Assembly: GCF_000385135.1 (NCBI RefSeq)
Contig: NZ_ARQM01000010.1
Coordinates: 1 to 64,000, forward strand
Source: Promicromonospora sukumoe 327MFSha3.1
GTDB taxonomy: Bacteria; Actinomycetota; Actinomycetes; Actinomycetales; Cellulomonadaceae
DNA length: 64,000 nt
Direction of reading: 5' to 3'
The notes beneath the pieces were generated by a model that saw nothing but the letters and a program-made list of their open reading frames with translations, did no database searches and was not told where the DNA came from. Shown here one piece after another: positions 11,816-48,749 of the stretch; the first letter of the stretch is position 1; each line of letters starts with the position of its first letter. The position numbers and the translations under genes are program-made.

Positions 11816-12991
11816 GTGCTTCCCGAACCGGCCGCGGTGCTGAGCCCCGCACCTGCCCGATCCGCCGAGCCTGTCCCGTCGACCCAGCAGTCGCCCGCCC
11901 CGGGCCCACGCTCCGGCCCGCGACCCGTCGCCCGCATCGCCGAGGTGGCCGTCCACCTGCCCGAGAACAGCCGCGACGTGGCCGAGGCCGAGCGCGACCT
12001 GCACCGCAGGAACCCGAAGGTCGCGCCCCGGATCCCGATGGTGTCGCGCCTGACCGGCGTGCGCCGCGTCCACGTGGCCGACGCCGACCAGCAGGCCTCC
12101 GACCTGGCCGTCGCCGCCTCCCGCACCCTGCTGGAGCGGGCGGGCCTGGGGCCCCAGGACGTCGACCTGCTGATCTTCGCGTCCGCGACCCAGGACATGA
12201 TCGAGCCCGCAACCAGCCACATCACGGCGGCCAAGCTGGGCGTCCGGGCGCCCGTGATGGACGTCAAGAACGCCTGCAACTCCGTGCTCAACGGGATCGA
12301 GGTGGCCGAGGCCCTCATCGGGACCGGCCGGTACCGGCGCGTGCTGGTCGCGTGCGGCGAGATGCCGACGCGCGGCGTCCGGTGGGACGTGCCCGACCGG
12401 GCGACGTACGCCATGTCCGCGGCTGGCTACACGATGTCCGACGGCGGGGCCGCGGTGCTGGTGGAGGCGGCCGAGGCGCCGTCCGGCTTCGAGGACGAGC
12501 TGGCCGCCGAGCTGGCTGGCCTGGTGTCGTCCGGTGACCGCCCGTCGGGGATCCTCGGCTCGGCGTTCACCGCCGAGTCGCAGCACTGGGACGTCGGCAT
12601 GCTGCCGGGCGGCGGCACCGTCAACCCGCGCGACCCGGAGCGCAGCTACTTCGAGATCGACGGCTCGCGGCTGCGCGAGGCGTTCCTCGCGCTCGGCCCC
12701 GGCCCTGTGCGGGAGGCGCTGGACCAGGCCGGCGTGACCATGGACGACGTCGCGCTCGTCGCGGTGCACCAGGTCGCCGTCGGCTACCTCGCCGACGTGC
12801 ACGCGGCGCTCGGCGTGCCGGCCGACCGGACGATCGTCACGGTGGCCGACCACGGCAACCTGGCCTCGGCCACGTTGCCGCTGCAGCTCGTGACGGCCCT
12901 GGAGTCGGGCCGGCTGCGGCGCGGTGACGTGGTGCTGCTCCTGGGGCTCGCGGGCGGCATCAGCATGGGTGCGATGGTGGTCCGGTGGTGA
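11816..12991 (+). CDS. OleA-like thiolase / 3-oxoacyl-ACP synthase III family condensing enzyme
   Basis: This 391-residue thiolase-fold protein has the nucleophile Cys154 in MDVKNACNSVLNGIE, a His in AVHQVAVGY and an Asn in HGNLASATLPLQL. It also has Glu130 in DMIEPATSHITAAKLG, 24 residues before the Cys. As I recall, such a Glu (Glu117 in Xanthomonas OleA, 26 residues before Cys143) marks OleA, which condenses two fatty acyl-CoAs head to head into a 2-alkyl-3-ketoacid. With OleC- and OleD-like genes downstream, OleA function is likelier than KAS III of fatty acid synthesis. A GTG at 11807 is an alternative start. The first 45 residues are a Pro/Ala-rich extension. The 3' end overlaps the glycosyltransferase gene. 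Confidence 0.82.
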   Translation: MLPEPAAVLSPAPARSAEPVPSTQQSPAPGPRSGPRPVARIAEVAVHLPENSRDVAEAERDLHRRNPKVAPRIPMVSRLTGVRRVHVADADQQASDLAVAASRTLLERAGLGPQDVDLLIFASATQDMIEPATSHITAAKLGVRAPVMDVKNACNSVLNGIEVAEALIGTGRYRRVLVACGEMPTRGVRWDVPDRATYAMSAAGYTMSDGGAAVLVEAAEAPSGFEDELAAELAGLVSSGDRPSGILGSAFTAESQHWDVGMLPGGGTVNPRDPERSYFEIDGSRLREAFLALGPGPVREALDQAGVTMDDVALVAVHQVAVGYLADVHAALGVPADRTIVTVADHGNLASATLPLQLVTALESGRLRRGDVVLLLGLAGGISMGAMVVRW

Positions 12992-13767
12992 ACCCGCGAG
13001 AGAGCAGAGCCCGTCTCACCGTCGTCGTGCCCGCGCTGAACGAGGCGCACGAGCACGGGATCCTGCGGACGCTCGAGGCGCTGCACGCCCAGGAGGACGA
13101 CGACTTCGACCTCGTCGTGGTGGACAACGGCTCCACGGACGGCACTCCCGACGTCGTCCGCAAGGCGATCGCCGAGTGGGGGCGGCTGCGCTGGCAGGTG
13201 GTGACCGAACCCGAGAAGGGGACCGGGGCCGCGGCCGACACGGGGATGCGGACCGCGATCGCCCAGGGCGCCGAGCTGCTGGCGCGGACCGACGCCGACT
13301 GCCTGCCGCCCCCCGGGTGGACCCGTGCGGTGCGCGCGGCATTCGCGTCGGGCGACGAGCTGGTCGCCGGGCGGCTCGTGCCACGCAGGGACGACCTGCC
13401 GGTCTCGCGGTTCCAGCAGGGCGTGCTGTCGTTCGCGCTGTGGGTCTCCAGCGCGTTCGGCAAGGTGCGGCCCGGGAACCAGGACGAGGGGTACCTGGGG
13501 CCGTACGTGATGGCGCCGGGCTGCAACATGGCGATCACGGCGTCCCTGTACGAGCGGGCGGGCGGGTTCCCGCGCACCCGGATCGAGGACGTGCACGAGG
13601 ACCGCGCCCTGGTCAACGCCGTGCGCCGGCTGACGACGCGGTACGCGGAGCACCGCGAGGTCTGGGTGCGGGCGTCGACCCGCCGCGTGCACGCGTGGGG
13701 CCTGGTGCGGACGCTCGGCTGGTACGCCGACCACCGCTACCGGCCCGAGGTCGTGGACATCCGATGA
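12988..13767 (+). CDS. family 2 glycosyltransferase
   Basis: The 259-residue protein is a GT-A fold enzyme: TVVVPALNEAHEHGILRTL at the N-terminus, the nucleotide-binding DLVVVDNGSTDGT, the metal-binding DAD in LARTDADCLPPPGW, and an ED motif in TRIEDVHEDRALV. No membrane segments are evident beyond a short hydrophobic patch. Donor and acceptor are unknown. Its place inside an ole-like operon suggests it sugar-decorates a lipid-like product, which is inference. The GTG start overlaps the thiolase stop codon (GTGA), and its own stop overlaps a P450 start. Confidence 0.88.
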   Translation: MNPRESRARLTVVVPALNEAHEHGILRTLEALHAQEDDDFDLVVVDNGSTDGTPDVVRKAIAEWGRLRWQVVTEPEKGTGAAADTGMRTAIAQGAELLARTDADCLPPPGWTRAVRAAFASGDELVAGRLVPRRDDLPVSRFQQGVLSFALWVSSAFGKVRPGNQDEGYLGPYVMAPGCNMAITASLYERAGGFPRTRIEDVHEDRALVNAVRRLTTRYAEHREVWVRASTRRVHAWGLVRTLGWYADHRYRPEVVDIR

Positions 13768-39169: not shown

Positions 39170-39219
39170 GACGTGTCAGACCCACAGGTCACCAGAGGGA
39201 TCTGTGGGTCTGACACGTC
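39170..39219. terminator. terminator hairpin, ACGTGTCAGAC family
   Basis: The 18-base arms 39170-39187 and 39202-39219 are perfect complements. The outer half, ACGTGTCAGAC, and the ACAGGTCACC next to the loop match the hairpins at 18008 and 62183. It lies between convergent genes. Confidence 0.85.
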
Positions 39220-39278
39220 AGTGCAGGAGTCAGTGCAGGAGTCAGTGCAGGAGTCAGCGCAGGAGTCAGCGCAAGCCC
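39219..39278. repeat. 12-base tandem repeat, five copies
   Basis: The unit CAGTGCAGGAGT occurs three times from 39219, then twice with CAGCGCA changes to about 39278. The stop codon of the minus-strand EboF-like gene lies inside the fourth copy, so copy number could change the last residues of that protein. Confidence 0.88.
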
Positions 39279-40666
39279 TGGAGGTCCAGCACCAGGCCTT
39301 TCACCGCCGACGCCGGCACCTGGCCCGCGTCGGCCTCGACCCAGTCGGCGACCGACGTCGGCACCTGGCCGTCCGAGCACAGGACCAGCGGCGTGTCCTC
39401 GGACGAGTCCGGCAGGCGGCCGTGCGTGCCGCGCACGTACGAGGCGTCGAGCGGGGTGGTGCCCATCGCGTACCGCAGGCCCAGCTTCTTGCGCACCAGG
39501 TTGAGGCCGGCCTTGGCCTTGGCGAGCGGGTCGGCCGGGTTGAAGAACAGCTCGGCGGGGTCGTAGCCCGGCTTGCGGTGGATGTCGACGCCGCGGGCGT
39601 ACTCGGGCGCACGGTCGTCGTCGAGCCAGAAGTAGTAGGTGAACCAGGCGCCCGGCTCCGCCACGACCACCAGCTCACCGGCGCGCTCGTGGTCCAGGCC
39701 GTACTTGGCCTGCGCCTCGCGGTCCAGCACCTCGTCGACGCCGGGCACCTCGCGCAGCAGGCTCGCCACGCGGGCCAGGTCCGCGGCGTCGTCCACGTAG
39801 ACGTGCGCCACCTGGTGGTCCGCGACGGCGAACGCGCGCGACGTCCACGGGTCGAGCTGCTCGCGCCCGTCCTGCACGTAGACCTCCAGCAGGCCCTCGC
39901 GGCGCAGGACCCGGTTGATGTCCACCGGCCGGTCCGCCGGCCCGATGCCGTACTCCGAGACGGCGACGACGGTGACGCCCGCGGCCTCGGCGTCGTCGAG
40001 CAGGGGCGCGAGCGCGGCGTCCAGCTCGGCCGCCGCCCGGTCGGCCTGGGGCGACTGCGGCCCGAACCGCTGCAGGTCGTAGTCCAGGTGCGGCAGGTAC
40101 GCCGTCGTGAGGTTGGACGTCCGGGTGCGCAGCAGGTGCCGCGTCACGTCCACGATCCAGCGGGTCGACGCGATCGACGCCGTCGGACCCCAGTACTGGA
40201 ACAGCGGGAAGTCGCCGAACCGGCCCACCAGCTCGTCGTGCAGCTCGGGCGGCCGCACGTACCCGTCCGGCGACTTGCGGCCGTCGGCGTGGTAGATCGG
40301 GCGCGGCGTGATCGTGACGTCGGTGGACATGCCCATCGCGTACCACCAGCACACGTTGTCGGCCTGGTAGCCCGGGGCCTGCCTCCGGGCGGCCTCCCAC
40401 ACGTTCTCGCCGCCGACGAGCCGGTTGTGCTGCCGCCACAGGTAGACGTCGCCCAGCTCGCGGAAGTACCAGCCGTTGCCGACGACGCCGTGCTCCGCCG
40501 GCATCAGGCCGGTGAGCATCGTCGACTGCACGCTGCAGGTCACCGCGGGCAGCACCGTGGCCAGCTCGGAGTGCCAGCCGGACTCCGCCAGCCGCCGCAG
40601 CCGCGGCATGTGCGCCAGGGCGCGGGCGGTCAGCCCGACGACGTCGAGCAGCAGGACGGGCCTCAT
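39266..40666 (-). CDS. eboF: EboF-like alkaline phosphatase/nucleotide pyrophosphatase family protein
   Basis: The 466-residue protein has the type I phosphodiesterase/alkaline phosphatase fold, with the nucleophile Thr in LPAVTCSVQSTMLTGLMPAEHG near residue 42, YLPHLDYDLQRFGPQS in the middle and later ADHQVAHVY. The usual metal-binding S-D-H-G is replaced by SEYGIGP, so metal binding may differ or activity may be lost. No signal peptide is seen. In Ebo clusters this is the last gene, EboF. Its ATG overlaps the EboE stop codon, and its ribosome site is the final copy of a 21-base repeat. Confidence 0.82.
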   Translation of the reverse strand: MRPVLLLDVVGLTARALAHMPRLRRLAESGWHSELATVLPAVTCSVQSTMLTGLMPAEHGVVGNGWYFRELGDVYLWRQHNRLVGGENVWEAARRQAPGYQADNVCWWYAMGMSTDVTITPRPIYHADGRKSPDGYVRPPELHDELVGRFGDFPLFQYWGPTASIASTRWIVDVTRHLLRTRTSNLTTAYLPHLDYDLQRFGPQSPQADRAAAELDAALAPLLDDAEAAGVTVVAVSEYGIGPADRPVDINRVLRREGLLEVYVQDGREQLDPWTSRAFAVADHQVAHVYVDDAADLARVASLLREVPGVDEVLDREAQAKYGLDHERAGELVVVAEPGAWFTYYFWLDDDRAPEYARGVDIHRKPGYDPAELFFNPADPLAKAKAGLNLVRKKLGLRYAMGTTPLDASYVRGTHGRLPDSSEDTPLVLCSDGQVPTSVADWVEADAGQVPASAVKGLVLDLQGLR

Positions 40667-41895
40667 GCGTTGACTCCTTCGGTGACGGTGCTGACTCCTT
40701 CGGCGACGCTGCTGACTCCTTCGGTCAGCAGGTGCTCGCCGGCCCAGCGCAGCTCGGCCGCGATCCCCGCGACGAGCTCGTCCGCGCCGTCGGGCCGCTG
40801 CGTGGGGAGAGCATCGGGCGGCAGGACCGACCAGGTGTACGTCTCGACGTCGAGGTGCGCCTCGGCACCGTGCGGCGCCTCCCGCACCGCGGCGACGGCG
40901 TCGCGCAGCACGTCGGTGGTCGCGGCCAGCGGGGCCGCGGGCTCGTGGTGCAGCGGCACGTGGAAGTGCACCCGCCACGGCCCGTCGCCCGGCAGTCCGG
41001 GCCGCCGGTCCTCGTTGCCCAGCGCCACGGGCAGGTCGTCCGAGGCCAGCACGTCGCCCGCCGCCGTCAGCTCGCGCACCTGGTGCAGGTACCGCTGCTC
41101 GACGAACCGGCCGACGGCGTCCCGCGCGCCGGGGGCGGACGGGTCCGCGACCTCCAGCGCCGCCGACGCCTGCACCTTGACCACCCGCAGGCCCGCGTCC
41201 GTGATCCTCCGGACGGCGCCCGCCGGGTCAGCGAACGACACCGCCAGGTGGCACGTGTCCAGGCAGACGCCCACGTGCTCGGGGTCGATGCGCCGGTCGT
41301 CCGGGAACTCGGCGCCGGTCCGCGGCGCCAGCCACGCGACGACGTCCTCGACGGTGTCCAGCACGCAGCCCGGCTCCGGCTCGACGGCGACCCGCACCGT
41401 GCGGCCCGTGCGCCGTGCCAGCTCGCGCAGCTCGGCGGACAGGGTGGCGAACGCGCGCGTGGCCTCGTCGTCGTCGGCACGGGTCCAGGGCGCGCGCCAC
41501 GCGAGCGGCAGGGTCGAGATCGACCCGGCGACGCCCTCGGGCAGCAGGTCGGCCAGCACCCGCGCGCACGCGAGCACGTACTCCAGCCGCGCCCGCTCGG
41601 CCCAGGTGGGGGAGTACACCGCGAGCTTGACGACCTCGCGGTGGAACCCGCCGTACGGGAACGCGTTCAGCGTGTGCACCTGGAGCCGGTGCTCGGCGAG
41701 CGCCGCGCGCAGGCGCTCGCGGTCCGCGGCAGACGTGTCCAGGCGGTGCGCCAGCTCCGCGGGCAGCCACAGCCCGACGCCGAGGGTGTCCAGGCCGGCG
41801 GCCTCGCGGACGGGCCCGGCGTACCGGGCGAGCTGGTCGATCACCCCGTCGAGGTCCTCGGCAGGATGCACGTTGGTGCAGTAGGAGAGCAGCAT
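40663..41895 (-). CDS. eboE: EboE-like metabolite traffic protein (xylose isomerase-like TIM barrel)
   Basis: The 410-residue protein starts LLSYCTNVHPAEDLDGVIDQ, which is the EboE N-terminus as I remember it. It continues as an AP endonuclease/xylose isomerase-type TIM barrel with likely metal ligands in VAVEPEPGCVLDT, CLDTCHLAVSF and FHVPLHHEP. The reaction is unknown; in cyanobacteria the ebo genes are needed to move a scytonemin precursor to the periplasm. The last 20 residues are a repeat (AEGVSTVTEGVNA) encoded by three 21-base DNA copies. Start ATG with AGAAGGG upstream, 34 bases after the TatD-like gene. Confidence 0.85.
   Translation of the reverse strand: MLLSYCTNVHPAEDLDGVIDQLARYAGPVREAAGLDTLGVGLWLPAELAHRLDTSAADRERLRAALAEHRLQVHTLNAFPYGGFHREVVKLAVYSPTWAERARLEYVLACARVLADLLPEGVAGSISTLPLAWRAPWTRADDDEATRAFATLSAELRELARRTGRTVRVAVEPEPGCVLDTVEDVVAWLAPRTGAEFPDDRRIDPEHVGVCLDTCHLAVSFADPAGAVRRITDAGLRVVKVQASAALEVADPSAPGARDAVGRFVEQRYLHQVRELTAAGDVLASDDLPVALGNEDRRPGLPGDGPWRVHFHVPLHHEPAAPLAATTDVLRDAVAAVREAPHGAEAHLDVETYTWSVLPPDALPTQRPDGADELVAGIAAELRWAGEHLLTEGVSSVAEGVSTVTEGVNA
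40671..40732. repeat. 21-base tandem repeat carrying a ribosome-binding site
   Basis: Three copies at 40671-40691, 40692-40712 and 40713-40732 read on the minus strand as units with GAAGGAGTCA. They encode the C-terminal repeat of the EboE-like protein, and the last copy places GAAGGAG just before the eboF start codon. Confidence 0.88.
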
Positions 41896-41929
41896 CGGGA
41901 AATCCCTTCTCAGGTTCGCTCAGGTCCGC

Positions 41930-42814
41930 TCAGGCCCGCGCGCCGCGCAGCACGGACGATCCCTCGAACTCGACGCCCGGCGTCGGCGGTTCGCCCGCGC
42001 TGAACCCGGGCACCGGGTCGAGCACGAGGTTGCCCGACTGGTCGTAGAAGGCGACGGGGTTGCGCCACAGCACCTGGTCGACGTCGTCGTCGGAGAAGCC
42101 GGCCGCCAGCATCTCCTGGCCCGTACGGACCGTCTTGAGCGGGTCCGAGCGGCCCCAGTCCGCCGCGGAGTTCACGATCATCCGGTCGGTCCCGTGCTCC
42201 TGCAGCAGGGCGACCATGCGGTGCTCGTCCATCTTGGTGTCGGGGTAGATCGAGAACCCGGCCCACGCGCCGGCGTCGCGCACCAGGGCGACGTTGGTCT
42301 CGTTGAGGTGGTCGACCAGCACCAGCTCCGGCGCGATCCCGGACTCGCGGACGACGTCGAGCGTGCGGCGCGTGCCGGCGAGCTTGTCGCGGTGCGGGGT
42401 GTGCACCAGCACGGGCAGCCCGGCCTCCTTGGCCATCTCGAGCTGGGCGGCGAAGACCTCGTCCTCCTCGGGCGTCATCGAGTCGTAGCCCACCTCGCCG
42501 ACGGCCACCACGCCGTCCTTCAGCAGGTAGCGCCGCACCTCGGCGAGCACCTCACGGCACCGCGGGTCGTTCGCCTCCTTGGGGTTGAGCGCGATCGTCG
42601 CGTGGTGCCGGACGCCGAACTGCGCCGCCCGGAACCGTTCCCAGCCCAGCAGGGAGTCGAAGTAGTCGGTGAACGAGCCCACGCTGGTGCGCGGCTGCCC
42701 CAGCCAGAAGGCGGGTTCGACGACGACCCGGACGCCCGCGGCGTACAGGGCCTCGTAGTCGTCGGTGGTGCGGCTCGTCATGTGGATGTGCGGGTCGAGG
42801 ATGCGCAACGTCAC
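41930..42814 (-). CDS. eboB: EboB-like TatD-family metal-dependent hydrolase
   Basis: The 294-residue amidohydrolase-fold protein begins LRILDPHIHMTSRTTDDYEAL (DxHxH metal site) and continues with VAVGEVGYDS (Glu ligand), LPVLVHTPHRDK (His) and MIVNSAADWGRSDPL (Asp). TatD relatives are nucleases or hydrolases; in Ebo clusters the EboB substrate is unknown. The GTG start overlaps the EboA stop codon. Confidence 0.86.
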   Translation of the reverse strand: MTLRILDPHIHMTSRTTDDYEALYAAGVRVVVEPAFWLGQPRTSVGSFTDYFDSLLGWERFRAAQFGVRHHATIALNPKEANDPRCREVLAEVRRYLLKDGVVAVGEVGYDSMTPEEDEVFAAQLEMAKEAGLPVLVHTPHRDKLAGTRRTLDVVRESGIAPELVLVDHLNETNVALVRDAGAWAGFSIYPDTKMDEHRMVALLQEHGTDRMIVNSAADWGRSDPLKTVRTGQEMLAAGFSDDDVDQVLWRNPVAFYDQSGNLVLDPVPGFSAGEPPTPGVEFEGSSVLRGARA

Positions 42815-43596
42815 TCCTTCGTGGTGCTGAGCCGGGTGTCCGTGGTGGCCGTGACCGTCGGCCGGGCGTCTGCCTGCCGGGCGTTCGTGGGCCGGGTGGC
42901 CGTGAGGCGGTCGAGGTCGTCCGGGACGGACCGGCCCGCCGCCCGGCGTTCCGCGGCGAAGTCGCGGGCCATGCGGGCCAGCTCCTCGTCGGCCCGGCGC
43001 TCCAGGTCGCTCGCGGCGGCCAGGCTCGTGCCCTGGAAGACGAGCTTGAGGATCGCGTGCCGCCAGGTGTGCTGGTCCAGGTACCGCGCCCCGAACGGGC
43101 CGACGGCGGCCGCGACCAGGCTGGGGTCGTTCGCCCGCAGCGCGTCGGCGGCGAGCTCCAGCCCGGCGGTGACGAGCGTGGTGGGCTCGGCGCCCGGGTG
43201 GAGGTCGCCCAGGGTGGTGAGCGCGTCCAGCCCCCGCAGCACGCCGCGCCGCTCGGCGCCGTCGCCCTGCCGGTACAGGAGCACCAGGCGGTCGGCGCAG
43301 TCCTGGTCCGCGACGGCGCCTACGGCCGTGCCCACGCCCATGCCGACACCCACGGCGTCGGCGAGGGCGACGACGAGCGCGGCGCGCGCGGCGTCGTCCA
43401 CCGTCCCGTGCACGACGCCGTTCGGGTCGGTCTCCGGGTGCAGCGGCGCGCGCCCCACCCGGCGGGCCGCGAACGCGAAGGCGCGGGTCACGCTGTCGGG
43501 ATCACGGGCGACCTCGGCGCGCGCCTCGTCCAACCAGGCGGCCCCGGGGGAGTTGCCCACGATGCTGTCCGGACCTGCGGTGGTGTCGACGTTCAT
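42811..43596 (-). CDS. eboA: EboA-domain protein
   Basis: The 261-residue protein has no known fold by eye but matches the EboA family as I remember it: WLDEARAEVARDPDSVTRAF near the start, LYRQGDGAERRGVLRGL in the middle and RYLDQHTWRHAILKLVFQG near residue 185. The role is unknown. The ATG at 43596 was chosen for GAGGGGG about 7 bases upstream. The C-terminal 40 residues are Thr/Ala-rich and probably unstructured. ATGA overlap with the upstream gene and GTGA overlap with the downstream gene. Confidence 0.85.
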   Translation of the reverse strand: MNVDTTAGPDSIVGNSPGAAWLDEARAEVARDPDSVTRAFAFAARRVGRAPLHPETDPNGVVHGTVDDAARAALVVALADAVGVGMGVGTAVGAVADQDCADRLVLLYRQGDGAERRGVLRGLDALTTLGDLHPGAEPTTLVTAGLELAADALRANDPSLVAAAVGPFGARYLDQHTWRHAILKLVFQGTSLAAASDLERRADEELARMARDFAAERRAAGRSVPDDLDRLTATRPTNARQADARPTVTATTDTRLSTTKE

Positions 43597-44516
43597 GACA
43601 GGGCCCCCTCGCTGCTGATGGCGTCTGTGCTGCTGGCGTCGTTGCTGGTCGTGCCGGTGCTGCTCGCCTGCGCCCACGCCCGCATCAGGGCGGCGCGGCT
43701 GTCCCGGGCGAGCCGGGGCGCGTCATGGGAGTGCCGGGGCAGCTCGACGGCGGCCACCCCCGTGTAGCCGATGTCGGCGAGCGTCGCGAGCACCAGCGGC
43801 AGGTCGATGTCGCCCTCGCCGAACGGCCGGTGCTCGTGGTGCGTCGTCGGCATGTCGTCGAGCTGCACGTTGCTCAGGTACGGCGCGGCGGCGCGCAGCG
43901 CCCCCTCGACCCCGCCGGGCTCCACCACGAGGCAGTGCCCCACGTCGACGGTGATGCCCAGCTCGGGCGGCGTGCCCAGGTCGCCGAGGAGCCGGAGCGC
44001 GTCGTCGACCGTCTCGACGAGCATGCCCGGCTCGGGTTCGAGCGAGAGCCGCACACCGCGCTCCCCGGCGAACTCGACGAGCTCACCGACGCGCTCGCTG
44101 AGCCGGGACCAGCCGTCGGCGGCGCTCGCGTCGTCGGGCAGGATGCCGGAGAAGAACGAGACGCACCGGGCGTCGAGGTCCGCCGCGATCTCGACCGCGC
44201 GCTCCAGGTACCGCATGCGCAGGGTCGCGTCCCGGTCCACGAGCGTGGGCCGGTGCTTGTGCAGCGGGTCGAGCAGGTACCGGGTGCCCGTCTCCACGAC
44301 CGCGGCGGCCCCGGTGCCCCCGCGCATCCGCCGCAGGTGAGCGCGCAGCGCGGTGACGTCGTCGCCGGCCAGGGGCGCGAACGGGTCCAGGTGCGGAAAG
44401 CCGAGCGTGACCGCGACGGCGTCGTACCCGACGTCGTCGAGCACGTCCAGGGCAGCACGGAGCGGGTGGTCCCCGAAGCCGTTCGTGCCGTAACCGAGCA
44501 GGAACGGGGGCCTCAC
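43593..44516 (-). CDS. sugar phosphate isomerase/epimerase-like TIM barrel protein
   Basis: The 307-residue protein begins RPPFLLGYGTNGFGDHPLRA and has the AP_endonuc_2/xylose isomerase-like barrel with metal ligands expected in LSLEPEPGMLVET, ITVDVGHCL and QLDDMPTTHHEH. It differs from the EboE-like barrel, so the operon has two such enzymes. It may act on a sugar or cyclitol phosphate, which is inference. The C-terminus is a Ser/Thr/Asp repeat (SSTGTTSNDASSTD). GTG start overlapping the prenyltransferase stop codon. Confidence 0.84.
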   Translation of the reverse strand: MRPPFLLGYGTNGFGDHPLRAALDVLDDVGYDAVAVTLGFPHLDPFAPLAGDDVTALRAHLRRMRGGTGAAAVVETGTRYLLDPLHKHRPTLVDRDATLRMRYLERAVEIAADLDARCVSFFSGILPDDASAADGWSRLSERVGELVEFAGERGVRLSLEPEPGMLVETVDDALRLLGDLGTPPELGITVDVGHCLVVEPGGVEGALRAAAPYLSNVQLDDMPTTHHEHRPFGEGDIDLPLVLATLADIGYTGVAAVELPRHSHDAPRLARDSRAALMRAWAQASSTGTTSNDASSTDAISSEGALS

Positions 44517-45496
44517 GTGATGCTCACCCCGGCCCGACCGCGCCGGCGGCCCAGCAGGCGCAGCCCGTGGCCGGCCGCCGCGACGCCGGCCAGGAGCGCG
44601 GTGGTGCCGAGGCCCCCGGCGCGGGCCGCCCACGCTGCCTGCAGCGGGACCATCGCCTGGATCCCGGCCCGGGTCGCGGTCCGCGCGTTGGCGGCCGTGG
44701 GCCGGGCCGTGGCCCGGACCTGCCCCGGCAGCGTGGCCGCGGCATAGGCCCCCGCGGCAGCGGCCGTGATCCAGCGGGCGGTGGTCGAGCGGGCAGTGGT
44801 CGAGCGGGCGGCAGTGCCGAACGCGGCGCCCGCGCCCGGACGAGCGGCCGCCACGGCGATCGCGCCCGCCACCGTCCCGGCGGCCACCCCGCCCGCGACC
44901 TGCGGCGTGGTGCCGTGCACCTCGCCGCGCGAGAGCACGGTCACCCCGAGGGTGTGCGCCGTCAGGCCCGCCGCGGCCGGGAGGGCCGACCGCAGGCGGC
45001 CGGGCGTGGCGCCCAGCAGCACGTCGAGCCCGCGGCACGCTGCCATGACGACGGGTCCGGCCGGCCGGTCCTTGGCGACCAGGTCGTAGGTCCAGACGCA
45101 CGCGGCCAGCGGCACGGCGACGGCCAGCGCGCGCCGTCCGCCCGCGAGGCCCGCCGCCGCGATGCCGCCCGCGGTGAGCGTCGCGCCGATCGCCAGCGCG
45201 GCCCGCGGCGTGACCCGGCCCGAGGGGATGGGCCGCTCGGGCCGCTCGACGGCGTCGACGTGCCGGTCGCCGTAGTCGTTCAGCGCCATGCCGCCCAGGT
45301 AGAGGCAGGCGGAGGCGACGGGCAGCAGGGCGTGCCGGGCGCGGAGCGGTGTCGGTACCCCGGACGCGGCGTGCGCACCGGCCCGGCCGGCGGCGAGACC
45401 GGCCAGGGTGTCGCCGACGACGCTGAGCGCGGCGGGGGCGCGGACCAGCTCGGCGACGTCGGCGAGGCCGGGCCTGCCCGTCGGCCGGGGGCTCAT
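44513..45496 (-). CDS. eboC: EboC-like UbiA-family prenyltransferase (SCO3242 type)
   Basis: The 327-residue membrane protein has several hydrophobic segments and the UbiA signature NDYGDRHVDAVERPERPIPSG near residue 75, whose Asp residues bind magnesium diphosphate. UbiA enzymes transfer a prenyl group from a polyprenyl diphosphate to an aromatic or other acceptor within the membrane. EboC is required for export of the scytonemin monomer in cyanobacteria. The second Asp motif is less clear (TYDLVAKDRPAG at about residue 150). ATGA overlap with the synthase gene upstream. Confidence 0.88.
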   Translation of the reverse strand: MSPRPTGRPGLADVAELVRAPAALSVVGDTLAGLAAGRAGAHAASGVPTPLRARHALLPVASACLYLGGMALNDYGDRHVDAVERPERPIPSGRVTPRAALAIGATLTAGGIAAAGLAGGRRALAVAVPLAACVWTYDLVAKDRPAGPVVMAACRGLDVLLGATPGRLRSALPAAAGLTAHTLGVTVLSRGEVHGTTPQVAGGVAAGTVAGAIAVAAARPGAGAAFGTAARSTTARSTTARWITAAAAGAYAAATLPGQVRATARPTAANARTATRAGIQAMVPLQAAWAARAGGLGTTALLAGVAAAGHGLRLLGRRRGRAGVSIT

Positions 45497-46722
45497 CGGC
45501 CGACCTGTGCCGCGGTGCCGCGCACCCACTCCTCGACGGCCCGGGCCTGGTCGGCGGCGTCGTGCACGTCGGAGCCCCAGGGATCCTTGAAGAAGAAGCC
45601 CAGCTCCGGCACCGGACCGCTGATCCCGGCGGCGTGCGCGAGCGCGAGCAGGCGAGCCAGGTCGAGCACGAGCGGCGCGGCGAGCATCGAGTCGTGCGCG
45701 CTCCACGTGGTCTGCAGCGTGAGCCGCGACCCGAGGAAACCCTCGACGTGCACGTGGTCCCAGGCCACCTTCGTGTCGCCCAGGTCGGGCACGTTGTCGA
45801 TGTGCAGGGGAGTGGTGTCGCTGCCGGTCAGCGCCGTCAGGCCGCGGTTCTTGCTGGCCAGCTTGCTGCGCACGGTGTCCGGGTCGGCCAGGGTGGCGCC
45901 GTCGCCCCCGCCCAGCAGGTTGGTGCCGGCCCACGAGAGCACCTTGAGGCCACGGGCGGCGAAGGCGGGCGCCAGCACGGTGCGCAGCCAGGTCTGCCCA
46001 GTCTTGCCGTCCTGCCCGGCCACGGGGATGCCGCGCTCGCGGGCGAGCCGGGTCAGCGCGGGCAGGCCCATGCCCGCCGACGGCGTGAACGCGGCGTACG
46101 CGGCTCCGGCAAGGATCGCCGCGTACGCCGAGACGGAGGACGCCGGCAGCACCGCGCGCGCCGGGTCGGCCAGGGCCGCGAGCAGCGCGTCGACGTCGTC
46201 GTGCTCGGGCGCCGGGACCACGGGCGGCTCGGTCGACGACAGGTCGATGACGACGACGCGCGCGAGGTCGTGCCGCTCCTGGAACGACGTGATGTCGGCG
46301 GCGAGCCGCTCGGCGGCGGCCTGCTGGGACTCGGCCCGGGCGCCGTCGGCGGGCGAGCCGGAAGTCTGCGAGCCGTGCGGGTCGTAGCCGGGGCGCACCT
46401 CGGCGTCCGCCCGCTCGAGAGCGTCGTGGGTGGCGGCGAACAGGCGCGGCCCGATCATGCCGGTCTCGACCAGGCACTCCGCGCGCTTGGTCATGGTGAC
46501 CGAGGAGATGTCGTGCCCGCCCACCACGAGGTCGGCGAACGCCGGGAGGCCGGCCGAGGCGAACGGCTCCCGCGCGGTGACGCAGCCCGTCGGTGGTGCC
46601 TGACCGTCGGCGATGGCCGCGAGTCCTACGGTGGCGGTGCTCGCCACCGATCCGCGGGCCCCGACGAACCAGATACCGGTTCGTGCGGTTGCTTTGTGGC
46701 GTGCAGAGGCGTGGTGCATCAT
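45493..46722 (-). CDS. inositol-3-phosphate synthase-like protein heading the Ebo-type operon
   Basis: The 409-residue protein matches myo-inositol-1-phosphate synthase family features: a Rossmann motif (GIWFVGARGSVASTATVGL), the catalytic core AGTNLLGGGDGATL and SKLASKNRGLTALTG, the lysine-containing LGDTKVAWDHVHVEGFLG, and DSMLAAPLVLDLARLL. The N-terminus differs from the usual actinobacterial Ino1, so it is a separate subfamily. Standard Ino1 makes inositol phosphate from glucose-6-phosphate. Canonical Ebo clusters have a sugar phosphate cyclase, EboD, in this operon. ATG at 46722 or 46719; GGGGAG favours the latter slightly. Confidence 0.84.
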   Translation of the reverse strand: MMHHASARHKATARTGIWFVGARGSVASTATVGLAAIADGQAPPTGCVTAREPFASAGLPAFADLVVGGHDISSVTMTKRAECLVETGMIGPRLFAATHDALERADAEVRPGYDPHGSQTSGSPADGARAESQQAAAERLAADITSFQERHDLARVVVIDLSSTEPPVVPAPEHDDVDALLAALADPARAVLPASSVSAYAAILAGAAYAAFTPSAGMGLPALTRLARERGIPVAGQDGKTGQTWLRTVLAPAFAARGLKVLSWAGTNLLGGGDGATLADPDTVRSKLASKNRGLTALTGSDTTPLHIDNVPDLGDTKVAWDHVHVEGFLGSRLTLQTTWSAHDSMLAAPLVLDLARLLALAHAAGISGPVPELGFFFKDPWGSDVHDAADQARAVEEWVRGTAAQVGR

Positions 46723-47060: not shown

Positions 47061-47117
47061 GTTGGCCTGAAGATCTGACCTCAGCCACGCAAGCCAGACA
47101 CATCGTTGGGAGCATCG

Positions 47118-48749
47118 ATGACCACCGCCTCGTTCCAGGTGTACGACACGACGCTGCGTGACGGCGCGCAGCAGGAGGGTATGAACCTCTCCGTCTCCGA
47201 CAAGCTCGCGATCGCGGCGCTGCTCGACGAGCTCGGCGTCGGCTACATCGAGGGCGGCTGGCCGGGGGCCGTACCCAAGGACACCGACTTCTTCGCCCGG
47301 GCCGCCACCGAGCTGACCCTGAAGAACGCGGTGCTCGCGGCCTTCGGCGCCACCCGGCGGGCGGGCGTCCGCGCGGGCGACGACCCGCAGGTGCGCGCGC
47401 TGCTCGACGCGGCGACCCCCGTGGTGACCCTCGTCGCCAAGTCCGACGTGCGGCACGTGGAGCGCGCGCTGAAGACGACGCGCGCCGAGAACCTCGCGAT
47501 GATCGGCGACACCGTCAGCTTCCTCGTGGGCGAGGGACGCCGCGTGGTGCTGGACGCCGAGCACTTCTTCGACGGCTACCGGTTCGACCGGGACTACGCG
47601 ACCAGCGCCGTCAGCACCGCGTTCGAGGCCGGGGCCGAGGTGGTCACGCTCTGCGACACCAACGGCGGCATGCTGCCCACCTGGGTCGGCGAGATCGTGA
47701 GCGAGCTGCGGGCCGGCACCGGCGTCGGGCCGGAGCAGATGCTCGGCGTGCACGCGCACAACGACACGGGCTGCGCCGTCGCGAACTCGCTCGCCGCCGT
47801 CGAGGCGGGCGCCACGCACGTGCAGGGCACGGTCAACGGCTACGGCGAGCGCACCGGCAACGCCGACCTCGTCACGGTCGTGGCGAACCTCGAGCTCAAG
47901 GCCGGCATGACCCTCCTGGCGGACGGCGGCCTGCGCGAGGCCGCCCGGATCTCGCACGCCATCAGCGAGATCACGAACATCTCGCCGTTCGCGCGCCAGC
48001 CGTACGTCGGGGCGAGCGCGTTCGCGCACAAGGGCGGCCTGCACGCCAGCGCCATCCGGGTCGACCCCGACATGTACCAGCACACCGACCCCACGCTGGT
48101 CGGCAACGACATGCGGATGCTGGTCTCCGACATGGCGGGCCGCGCCTCGATCGAGCTCAAGGGCCGCGAGCTGGGCTTCGACCTGGCCGGCCAGGGCGAG
48201 CTGCTCTCCCGCGTCACGAACCGCGTGAAGGACGACGAGGCCGCCGGCTACACCTACGAGGCCGCCGACGCGTCGTTCGAGCTGCTGCTGCGGTCCGAGC
48301 TGGGGCAGCGGCCGGACTTCTTCACCGTCGAGTCGTGGCGCACCATCGTCGAGACCGTCCCCGCGGGCGCGGCCCCGCCGTCGGTCCACGCGCCGGACGC
48401 CGTCGCGGTGGCCGAGGCGACCGTCAAGCTCCGCGCCGGCGGCGAGCGGATCGTGACGACGGGGGAGGGCAACGGCCCCGTCAACGCGCTGGACCAGGCG
48501 CTGCGCACCGCGCTCTCGCGGGTCTACCCGGAGCTGGCCCGGTTCGAGCTCATCGACTTCAAGGTGCGGCTGCTGGACACCGAGCTCGGCACCGACGCGA
48601 TCACGCGGGTGCTGACCGAGACCAGCGACGGCGAGCGGTCGTGGTCGACGGTGGGCGTGGGGCCGAACGTGGTCGAGGCCGCGTGGGAGGCCGTGACGGA
48701 GGCGTACGTGTACGGCCTGCTGAAGTCGGGCGTGGACCCGCGGCCCTGA
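47118..48749 (+). CDS. cimA: (R)-citramalate synthase
   Basis: CimA condenses pyruvate with acetyl-CoA to citramalate, entering isoleucine synthesis without threonine. The 543-residue protein has the HMG-CoA lyase-like barrel (YDTTLRDGAQQEGMNLSVSD at the start, metal-binding HAHNDTGCAVANSLAAVEAG near residue 215) and a C-terminal LeuA-type allosteric dimerisation domain (from about residue 400). The length and the DGAQQEGMNLS variant fit the CimA group rather than LeuA. The isoleucine leader upstream independently supports the assignment. ATG at 47118 has GGGAGC upstream. Confidence 0.92.
   Translation: MTTASFQVYDTTLRDGAQQEGMNLSVSDKLAIAALLDELGVGYIEGGWPGAVPKDTDFFARAATELTLKNAVLAAFGATRRAGVRAGDDPQVRALLDAATPVVTLVAKSDVRHVERALKTTRAENLAMIGDTVSFLVGEGRRVVLDAEHFFDGYRFDRDYATSAVSTAFEAGAEVVTLCDTNGGMLPTWVGEIVSELRAGTGVGPEQMLGVHAHNDTGCAVANSLAAVEAGATHVQGTVNGYGERTGNADLVTVVANLELKAGMTLLADGGLREAARISHAISEITNISPFARQPYVGASAFAHKGGLHASAIRVDPDMYQHTDPTLVGNDMRMLVSDMAGRASIELKGRELGFDLAGQGELLSRVTNRVKDDEAAGYTYEAADASFELLLRSELGQRPDFFTVESWRTIVETVPAGAAPPSVHAPDAVAVAEATVKLRAGGERIVTTGEGNGPVNALDQALRTALSRVYPELARFELIDFKVRLLDTELGTDAITRVLTETSDGERSWSTVGVGPNVVEAAWEAVTEAYVYGLLKSGVDPRP

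Follow-up and report, generated by a model that had tools for sequence, protein, structure and literature searches.

A predicted myo-inositol-1-phosphate synthase stands in the place of EboD in an ebo-type operon of Promicromonospora sukumoe

Ebo gene clusters are known from many bacterial phyla, and some algal plastids have them too. Known clusters carry EboD, a cyclase of the dehydroquinate-synthase superfamily, with EboB described as TatD-like and EboF as PF01663-type (PMC5133447). Two types serve as points of comparison: (i) the EboA type, frequent among Bacteroidota and Cyanobacteriota (Yurchenko et al. 2016, PMC5133447), in which EboA, EboB, a UbiA enzyme, EboE and EboF are clustered, and (ii) the EboG type of Deinococcus, Herpetosiphon, some Acidobacteriota and, in Actinomycetota, genome G381, which shares EboB, EboE, the UbiA enzyme and EboF and has EboD together with an EboG-like gene. 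The role of ebo in moving a metabolite to the periplasm comes from Nostoc genetics (PMC6282210); an isoprenoid-cyclitol product was proposed in 2016 (Yurchenko et al., PMC5133447) and a lipid-carrier model in 2018 (PMC6282210), and the Pseudomonas EDB cluster (Zhou et al. 2022) is treated in a review (PMC9655573). The operon described here comprises seven genes on the minus strand of Promicromonospora sukumoe 327MFSha3.1, from 46722 down to 39266 of a 64,000-nucleotide stretch (contig NZ_ARQM01000010.1, positions 1 to 64,000), referred to as the window. By most of its features it is an ebo operon, but a variant rather than a standard member, because EboD was sought and is absent and a predicted myo-inositol-1-phosphate synthase (MIPS), of unrelated fold, is in its place; sequence comparison supports this swap well.

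The first gene (45493..46722, 409 residues) is the key fact of the operon: its predicted product is a member of the MIPS family standing in EboD's place, the one gene that the first-pass annotation, which recognized Ebo components or their companions in the six others, had left unnamed. It carries both MIPS Pfam domains (PF07994, 177.3 bits; PF01658, 104.7 bits), and its best solved relative is the Ino1 of Archaeoglobus fulgidus (1u1i; 4.5e-60), with which it shares the fold and four aligned lysines. These residues, Lys 287, 291, 318 and 379 in gene 1 numbering, are invariant in 44 of the 44 ebo-MIPS and correspond in the 1u1i alignment to the catalytic lysines of the archaeal enzyme. A. fulgidus Ino1 differs in its score to the ebo-MIPS profile, 319.5 bits compared with 480-627 for the actinobacterial ebo-MIPS with the same alignment. 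Against the mycothiol INO1 model TIGR03450, gene 1 reaches 38.7 bits, under the cut-off of 638, whereas a separate MIPS on another contig of the same genome is the mycothiol Ino1 (707.4 bits, cut-off 638). A product other than inositol phosphate is possible for gene 1, since 6k96, a distant relative, bears the name five-membered-cyclitol-phosphate synthase. EboD finds no match in the window, and its best match in the window's genome scores 144.3 bits, compared with 631.7 for the EboD of G381. No paper on a MIPS in ebo or on a swap of the cyclase turned up in searches of an open-access library, most subscription papers lying outside those searches, and the word inositol is absent from PMC6092422 and from three further papers that the searches listed.

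The distribution of the two cyclases follows the same division. Among 396 Actinomycetota genomes, EboE is present in 19 and ebo-MIPS in 17, the latter scoring 541-627 bits, against 322 for the match that follows; among 198 genomes of the window's taxonomic order, EboE is present in 25 and ebo-MIPS in 22 (480-617 bits, one further match at 324). Together the two samples, which have G000 and G268 in common, contain 37 distinct ebo-MIPS genomes, all 37 with EboE, and in neither sample does an EboE-less genome match at the ebo-MIPS score level. The five EboE genomes without ebo-MIPS comprise one with a decayed locus (G279), one of EboD type (G381), one that keeps the other six genes (G610) and two with EboE alone (G620, G717). 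Within the 19 EboE genomes of the 396-genome sample, EboD reaches 631.7 bits in G381, which is without ebo-MIPS, at most 178.1 elsewhere, and has no match in G318; in six EboD-type ebo genomes, other MIPS score at most 256.4 bits, two of the six having none. Outside Actinomycetota, 5 of 151 genomes of Chloroflexota and 6 of 149 of Acidobacteriota have EboE (one of the latter under the cut-off), and eight of the nine loci fetched from these phyla have EboD, the ninth (L230) having neither cyclase.

EboD is the sole cyclase at 93 of the 152 fetched loci and ebo-MIPS at 43; 16 have neither, and no locus has both. The loci are not independent, with L225 and L045 apparently one record and many congeners among them. 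The 16 loci without either cyclase comprise (i) L206, L215 and L216, on short contigs of genomes with ebo-MIPS on another contig; (ii) L035, where the stretch ends early and the MIPS follows directly; (iii) L209, L212 and L213, with EboE alone, and the decayed L042; (iv) L025, a second copy in G128, whose other copy has MIPS; (v) L201 (G610), without MIPS; and (vi) L051, L070, L071 and L101, all from the 80-locus sample described next, L230 and the haloarchaeal L239, with neither cyclase in the fetched stretch. Eighty of the loci are the best 80 of 580 EboE relatives, a sample that favors the EboD type because EboD-type EboE heads the query alignment; the Actinomycetota, order, Chloroflexota and Acidobacteriota samples are less biased. 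Single-sequence hidden Markov models (HMMs) were used for EboD, EboG, Idi2, polyprenyl synthetase, ThuA, GSDH, ScyE and others. Some of these loci have features of their own. L209, L212 and L213 pass the EboE model at 391-405 bits, with no other ebo genes in the stretch; the second ebo copy of G128 (L025, 13912-15333) has an FAD oxidoreductase-like gene upstream of UbiA; and L230 (793-4496), on a 7.4-kb Acidobacteriota contig, reads TIM, EboB, TIM, UbiA, near the haloarchaeal set, with no EboD, EboF or MIPS match.

Relatives keep the genes together, as expected of the ebo-like set first proposed from the sequence. The seven genes recur in identical arrangement in 15 of the 19 other fetched Actinomycetota EboE loci (tblastn), L040 with its joined TIM2 and EboA being one of the 15, and MIPS lies near EboE in 17 of 24 further loci from the window's order; in L035, an 18-gene set at the edge of its fetched stretch, the last part of MIPS is in place (tblastn). 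In the decayed locus of G279 (L042, 6684-11628), UbiA is fragmented and EboE is missing its middle.

The marks by which an ebo cluster is recognized include physical clustering, EboE, EboA or EboG, and the pair of EboB and EboF, each of which is found in the window. The coupling of the seven genes between 39266 and 46722 proved real: by their coordinates, 4-base overlaps join MIPS/UbiA, UbiA/TIM2, TIM2/EboA, EboA/EboB and EboE/EboF, five of the six junctions, and the sole gap, of 34 bases (41896-41929), separates EboB from EboE. Repeats upstream of gene 1 were looked at and led nowhere. The profile comparison proposed for these genes supports EboE and the EboA domain. Gene 6 (40663..41895, 410 residues) is EboE (NF035939, 436.4 bits, cut-off 250), and gene 4 (42811..43596, 261 residues) passes the EboA domain model (NF035938, 132.5, cut-off 50); the latter fails the narrower EboA_family model (59.2 against 320), as does the EboD-type control from Aureibacter (171.1). 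Gene 2 (44513..45496, 327 residues), a UbiA-superfamily prenyltransferase (PF01040, 68.8 bits) and the EboC counterpart, fails the EboC model NF035940 (142.5 against 250) and passes that of the sister family SCO3242 (NF045897, 308.9 against 260). The EboC equivalog model is narrow, since of its controls Aureibacter EboC passes (342.5) and that of Salipiger fails too (92.7). The first Asp-rich motif of the ebo UbiA enzyme is invariant in 131 of 131.

EboB and EboF are assigned from Pfam folds and trees, neither having matched an NCBIfam model. Gene 5 (41930..42814, GTG start, 294 residues) is the TatD-like metal hydrolase EboB (PF01026, 51 bits) and groups in the EboB tree with EboA-type EboB; nine metal-binding or neighboring positions are invariant in 140 of 140, except the first Asp, found in 133. 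Gene 7 (39266..40666, 466 residues), a phosphodiesterase-like EboF with an altered metal-site motif (PF01663, 211.4 bits), groups with bacterial EboF. In the alignment of gene 7 with 142 relatives, the Thr is invariant (143 of 143), Gln takes the place of the pyrophosphatase-motif His in 140, and SEYG stands where SDHG would be expected, with Glu in 141 and Tyr in 143 of the 143. EboF may not be an ordinary two-zinc phosphodiesterase. An apparent EboF fusion in L039 is an artefact of a match running beyond a stop. Gene 3 (43593..44516, GTG start, 307 residues), a xylose-isomerase-like TIM barrel termed TIM2 (PF01261, 131.6 bits), was ruled out as a second EboE, with 15.9 bits to a model whose cut-off is 250. 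Compared with the EboA type, the window's operon has MIPS for EboD, the extra TIM2, a UbiA enzyme of the SCO3242 family and another gene order. In the EboG-type locus of G381 (L028), MIPS, TIM2 and EboA were not found; after it lies a gene (12622-13662) that on inspection resembles a type 2 isopentenyl diphosphate isomerase, with Pfam FMN_dh.

MIPS and TIM2 go together both inside and outside ebo. Seven of the 396 Actinomycetota genomes have a second-tier MIPS (309-322 bits), and their loci (L153-L159) hold a TIM2 relative in seven of seven cases and no other Ebo match; the relative in L159 is cut off and scores 189.8 bits, those at the other six loci 342-371. MIPS and TIM2 are adjacent in L155 (7249-9336), whose genome, G279, holds the decayed ebo locus L042 on another contig, and the non-ebo TIM2 fall among those of ebo in a quick tree without bootstrap. 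The set of L153 (601-9581) includes MIPS, TIM2, YcaO, Gfo/Idh, a methyltransferase and a glycosyltransferase, with relatives in L154 and L156-L159. TIM2 is also close to EboA: the two overlap by 4 bases in 9 of the 16 loci that have both as separate genes, with starts chosen by script, and share one open frame in L040 (7211-8632) and in L248. Fusions of the TIM2-EboA type in Actinobacteria had already been noted in 2016 (PMC5133447).

The same MIPS is found beyond Actinomycetota. Of 51 plasmid records that match EboB, 20 were opened, hand-picked for breadth from PLSDB, whose gene tables are incomplete. Three of four haloarchaeal plasmid loci (L238, L244 and L245; Halobaculum, Halocatena, Natronococcus) resemble the window in having MIPS, EboB, a UbiA enzyme, EboF and two TIM barrels, with no EboD match; they differ in that the TIM barrels are of their own kind, placed between EboB and UbiA and after UbiA, and that nothing in the stretches matches EboA or reaches more than 60 bits to EboE. 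The unannotated Gemmatirosa locus L246 comprises EboE, an EboG-like gene, EboB, EboF, UbiA, MIPS and TIM2, without an EboD match, and, unlike the EboG-type locus L028, combines the EboG-like gene with MIPS and TIM2. In the main MIPS tree, built from 24 of the 44 ebo-MIPS and ten other MIPS, the ebo-MIPS of actinobacteria, haloarchaea and Gemmatirosa fall on one side of a 100/100 branch; the ten are all from Actinomycetota, so that MIPS from other phyla could fall inside the ebo group. An earlier tree that included the distant mycothiol Ino1 supported the actinobacterial ebo-MIPS at 85/82 only.

The EboB and EboF trees, both quick and without bootstrap, place these backbones differently. The EboB tree has Gemmatirosa inside the EboD/EboG group (SH-aLRT, a likelihood-ratio branch support, of 100), the actinobacterial loci joined to the EboD/EboA group (SH-aLRT 96) and the haloarchaea apart. 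Because Gemmatirosa groups with the EboG type and the actinobacteria with the EboA type, the EboB tree points to a dedicated MIPS on two or more ebo backbones, EboA- and EboG-type. Since one MIPS clade is present both in the haloarchaeal ebo-like loci and on the EboG-type backbone of Gemmatirosa, EboD has probably been replaced more than once. In the EboF tree, the EboA and EboG groups are not separated and Gemmatirosa sits with proteobacterial EboF, so that genes have probably been exchanged between ebo clusters.

The surroundings of the actinobacterial operons show two recurrent neighbors. Within 15 kb of EboE, 19 of 35 genomes have a PF07995 sugar dehydrogenase (GSDH), where 0.92 would be expected (P 4e-22), and 7 of 35 have a PF00348 polyprenyl synthetase, where 0.72 would be expected (P 6e-6), figures to be read with a limit set after the loci were viewed, hand-read distances, an incomplete GSDH listing and P values that ignore kinship. 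The 35 genomes comprise 34 of the 37 ebo-MIPS genomes, G566, G581 and G595 being omitted as their operons are broken by contig ends, and G610, which has no ebo-MIPS; G610 is positive for both neighbors, and the ebo-MIPS genomes alone give GSDH in 18 of 34 and polyprenyl synthetase in 6 of 34. The six GSDH genes of the window's genome lie elsewhere, none near the operon. Among the best 80 of 580 EboE relatives, mostly EboD-type loci, GSDH is near only 3, and it was rejected as a neighbor of EboD-type loci. PqqC, a marker of pyrroloquinoline quinone (PQQ) synthesis, is present in 6 of the 35 genomes and was not found in that of the window.

Among further neighbors, ThuA and 3-keto-disaccharide hydrolase domains lie near L030; ThuA, DUF1080 and a PQQ-dependent sugar dehydrogenase lie near haloarchaeal loci, the last beside that of Natronococcus; and a PQQ-dependent dehydrogenase follows the EboD-type locus of Salipiger. 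In Ketogulonicigenium, EboB has a 'dehydrogenase' accompanied by a c-type cytochrome at a distance of about 5 kb; this candidate quinoprotein neighbor was set aside, as it gave no match to an HMM of the Salipiger enzyme. Three of the five annotated Streptomyces plasmids opened carry a ScyD/ScyE family gene immediately upstream of the operon and a multicopper oxidase downstream of it. A search with an HMM built from a single ScyE-family protein finds no ScyE-like gene in the window, in agreement with the first-pass view that no scytonemin genes are present there, nor in the 43 actinobacterial genome-sample loci, and ScyE was rejected as a general neighbor (3 of 5 plasmids, 0 of 43 loci). On a plasmid of Streptomyces sp. 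NBC_00376 (L233, 1-20798), a few genes separate the operon from a non-ribosomal peptide synthetase, which may be compared with SCO3242/SCO3243 in the calcium-dependent antibiotic (CDA) cluster.

Of the prenylated or phosphorylated cyclitol carrier at first suggested for this operon, the prenylated cyclitol stands as the best reading. On present comparisons it is rather probable that the operon is an inositol-type ebo cluster, in which MIPS and TIM2 would supply a cyclitol and the UbiA enzyme would prenylate it. MIPS would convert glucose 6-phosphate into inositol phosphate or a keto form; TIM2, perhaps with EboE, would isomerise, epimerise or dehydrate the MIPS-derived ring; and the UbiA enzyme would link that ring to an isoprenoid chain. 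An oxygen is the more likely point of attachment, because digeranylgeranylglyceryl phosphate synthase and chlorophyll synthase are the nearest solved relatives of gene 2 (6m31, 9sas). EboB and EboF would process the prenylated ring, EboA would work with TIM2, and the resulting prenylated cyclitol would act at or across the membrane. In favor of this reading stand the MIPS identity of gene 1, the separate mycothiol Ino1, the lack of any locus with both cyclases, the ebo-MIPS branch shared by two backbones, the pairing of MIPS with TIM2 outside ebo and the polyprenyl synthetase near EboE in 7 of 35 genomes. Several observations weigh against this reading. Of 14 aromatic acceptors offered to ebo UbiA proteins, 6 were farnesylated; quinolines reacted best, on the ring, whereas phenols and catechols did not react (PMC9235831), and no cyclitol is named there among the acceptors. 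The Nostoc study reports no lipid-conjugated scytonemin monomer (PMC6282210). At the level of genes, no polyprenyl synthetase lies near the window's operon, G610 (L201) retains the other six genes with no ebo-MIPS in its genome, and the second copy in G128 (L025) is also without MIPS.

A tentative alternative, less likely yet compatible with a prenylated cyclitol as one possible purpose of it, is that the operon builds a membrane lipid that takes some other metabolite out of the cytoplasm, on the pattern suggested for Nostoc scytonemin. All Nostoc ebo mutants retain the scytonemin monomer in the cytoplasm (PMC6282210), and the ScyD/ScyE family gene just upstream on three of five annotated Streptomyces plasmids fits a cargo of this sort, whereas the listing of shared families reveals no recurrent cargo or dedicated exporter gene beside the actinobacterial loci, and neither the window nor the 43 genome-sample loci hold a ScyE-like gene. 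More doubtful is that the product, as a prenylated cyclitol derivative, would be a new small cofactor or electron carrier for oxidoreductases outside the cytoplasm. The idea follows from the GSDH excess (19 of 35), the PQQ enzymes of Natronococcus and Salipiger, the ScyE and multicopper oxidases of three Streptomyces plasmids, and the Nostoc ebo genes serving a pathway that ends at periplasmic ScyE; against it, the window genome's GSDH lie away from the operon, and GSDH is near 3 of 80 loci (best 80 of 580).

A prenylated aromatic or quinone, for which the TIM barrels would dehydrate the inositol-derived ring to a polyhydroxybenzene and UbiA would prenylate carbon, is unlikely, slightly more so than the electron carrier. 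TIM2 bears a weak likeness to IolE, the inosose dehydratase (20.0 bits), and to further sugar isomerases, and the EboE profile resembles IolI (22.2 bits), but these likenesses are weak and common to the whole fold, and the nearest solved UbiA relatives are not known to prenylate aromatic carbon. Quinolines are ring-prenylated in vitro by ebo UbiA proteins, those of marine Bacteroidota farnesylating 8-hydroxyquinoline-2-carboxylic acid, whereas the tested enzyme gave no product from phenols or catechols (PMC9235831). That the set helps degrade inositol or 3-keto sugars is improbable: many loci have ThuA, 3-keto-disaccharide hydrolase, GSDH and additional TIM barrels nearby, which would suit catabolism, yet none of these neighbors was found at the window, MIPS makes a ring rather than degrading one, and a prenyltransferase is present in nearly all complete sets. 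The family name and fold of MIPS would suit a housekeeping supply of inositol to mycothiol and phosphatidylinositol, the gene lying in the operon by chance. This is the least credible of the explanations and was rejected on the separate mycothiol Ino1 elsewhere in the genome (707.4 bits) and the MIPS tree, in which ebo-MIPS form a separate group, present in 37 EboE genomes, while the remaining genomes of the two samples have no match of that score.

Outside the operon, an inverted repeat 3' of gene 7 (39170..39219) lies between the end of EboF and that of a convergent gene. Its perfect 18-base arms (39170-39187 and 39202-39219), without a T-run, form a terminator-like hairpin that folds with its flanks at -58.2 kcal/mol (z -6.21). 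Short near-repeats are seen by eye at 39217-39272, around the EboF stop, and at 40672-40729, in the tail of EboE. Upstream of the operon, a divergent gene (47106-48749) resembles, on inspection by eye, a citramalate or isopropylmalate synthase.

The swap bears on ebo clusters at large. In Streptomyces coelicolor, SCO3242 and SCO3243 are counted as CDA cluster genes, a putative transferase being numbered beside a myo-inositol phosphate synthase (PMC3610822); the NCBIfam model that gene 2 passes is named after SCO3242, and the remainder of the operon would be expected at that locus. The comparison suggests that two genes of the CDA antibiotic cluster may belong to an ebo operon, and ebo-like sets extend to the haloarchaea. 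If MIPS stands in for EboD on at least two backbones, the making of a ring from a sugar phosphate would be the step that ebo clusters have in common. Because the MIPS family has a known substrate, glucose 6-phosphate, and a known product, inositol phosphate, the ring compound would be traceable, so that the replacement of EboD by MIPS hints at what ebo builds and makes that question testable.

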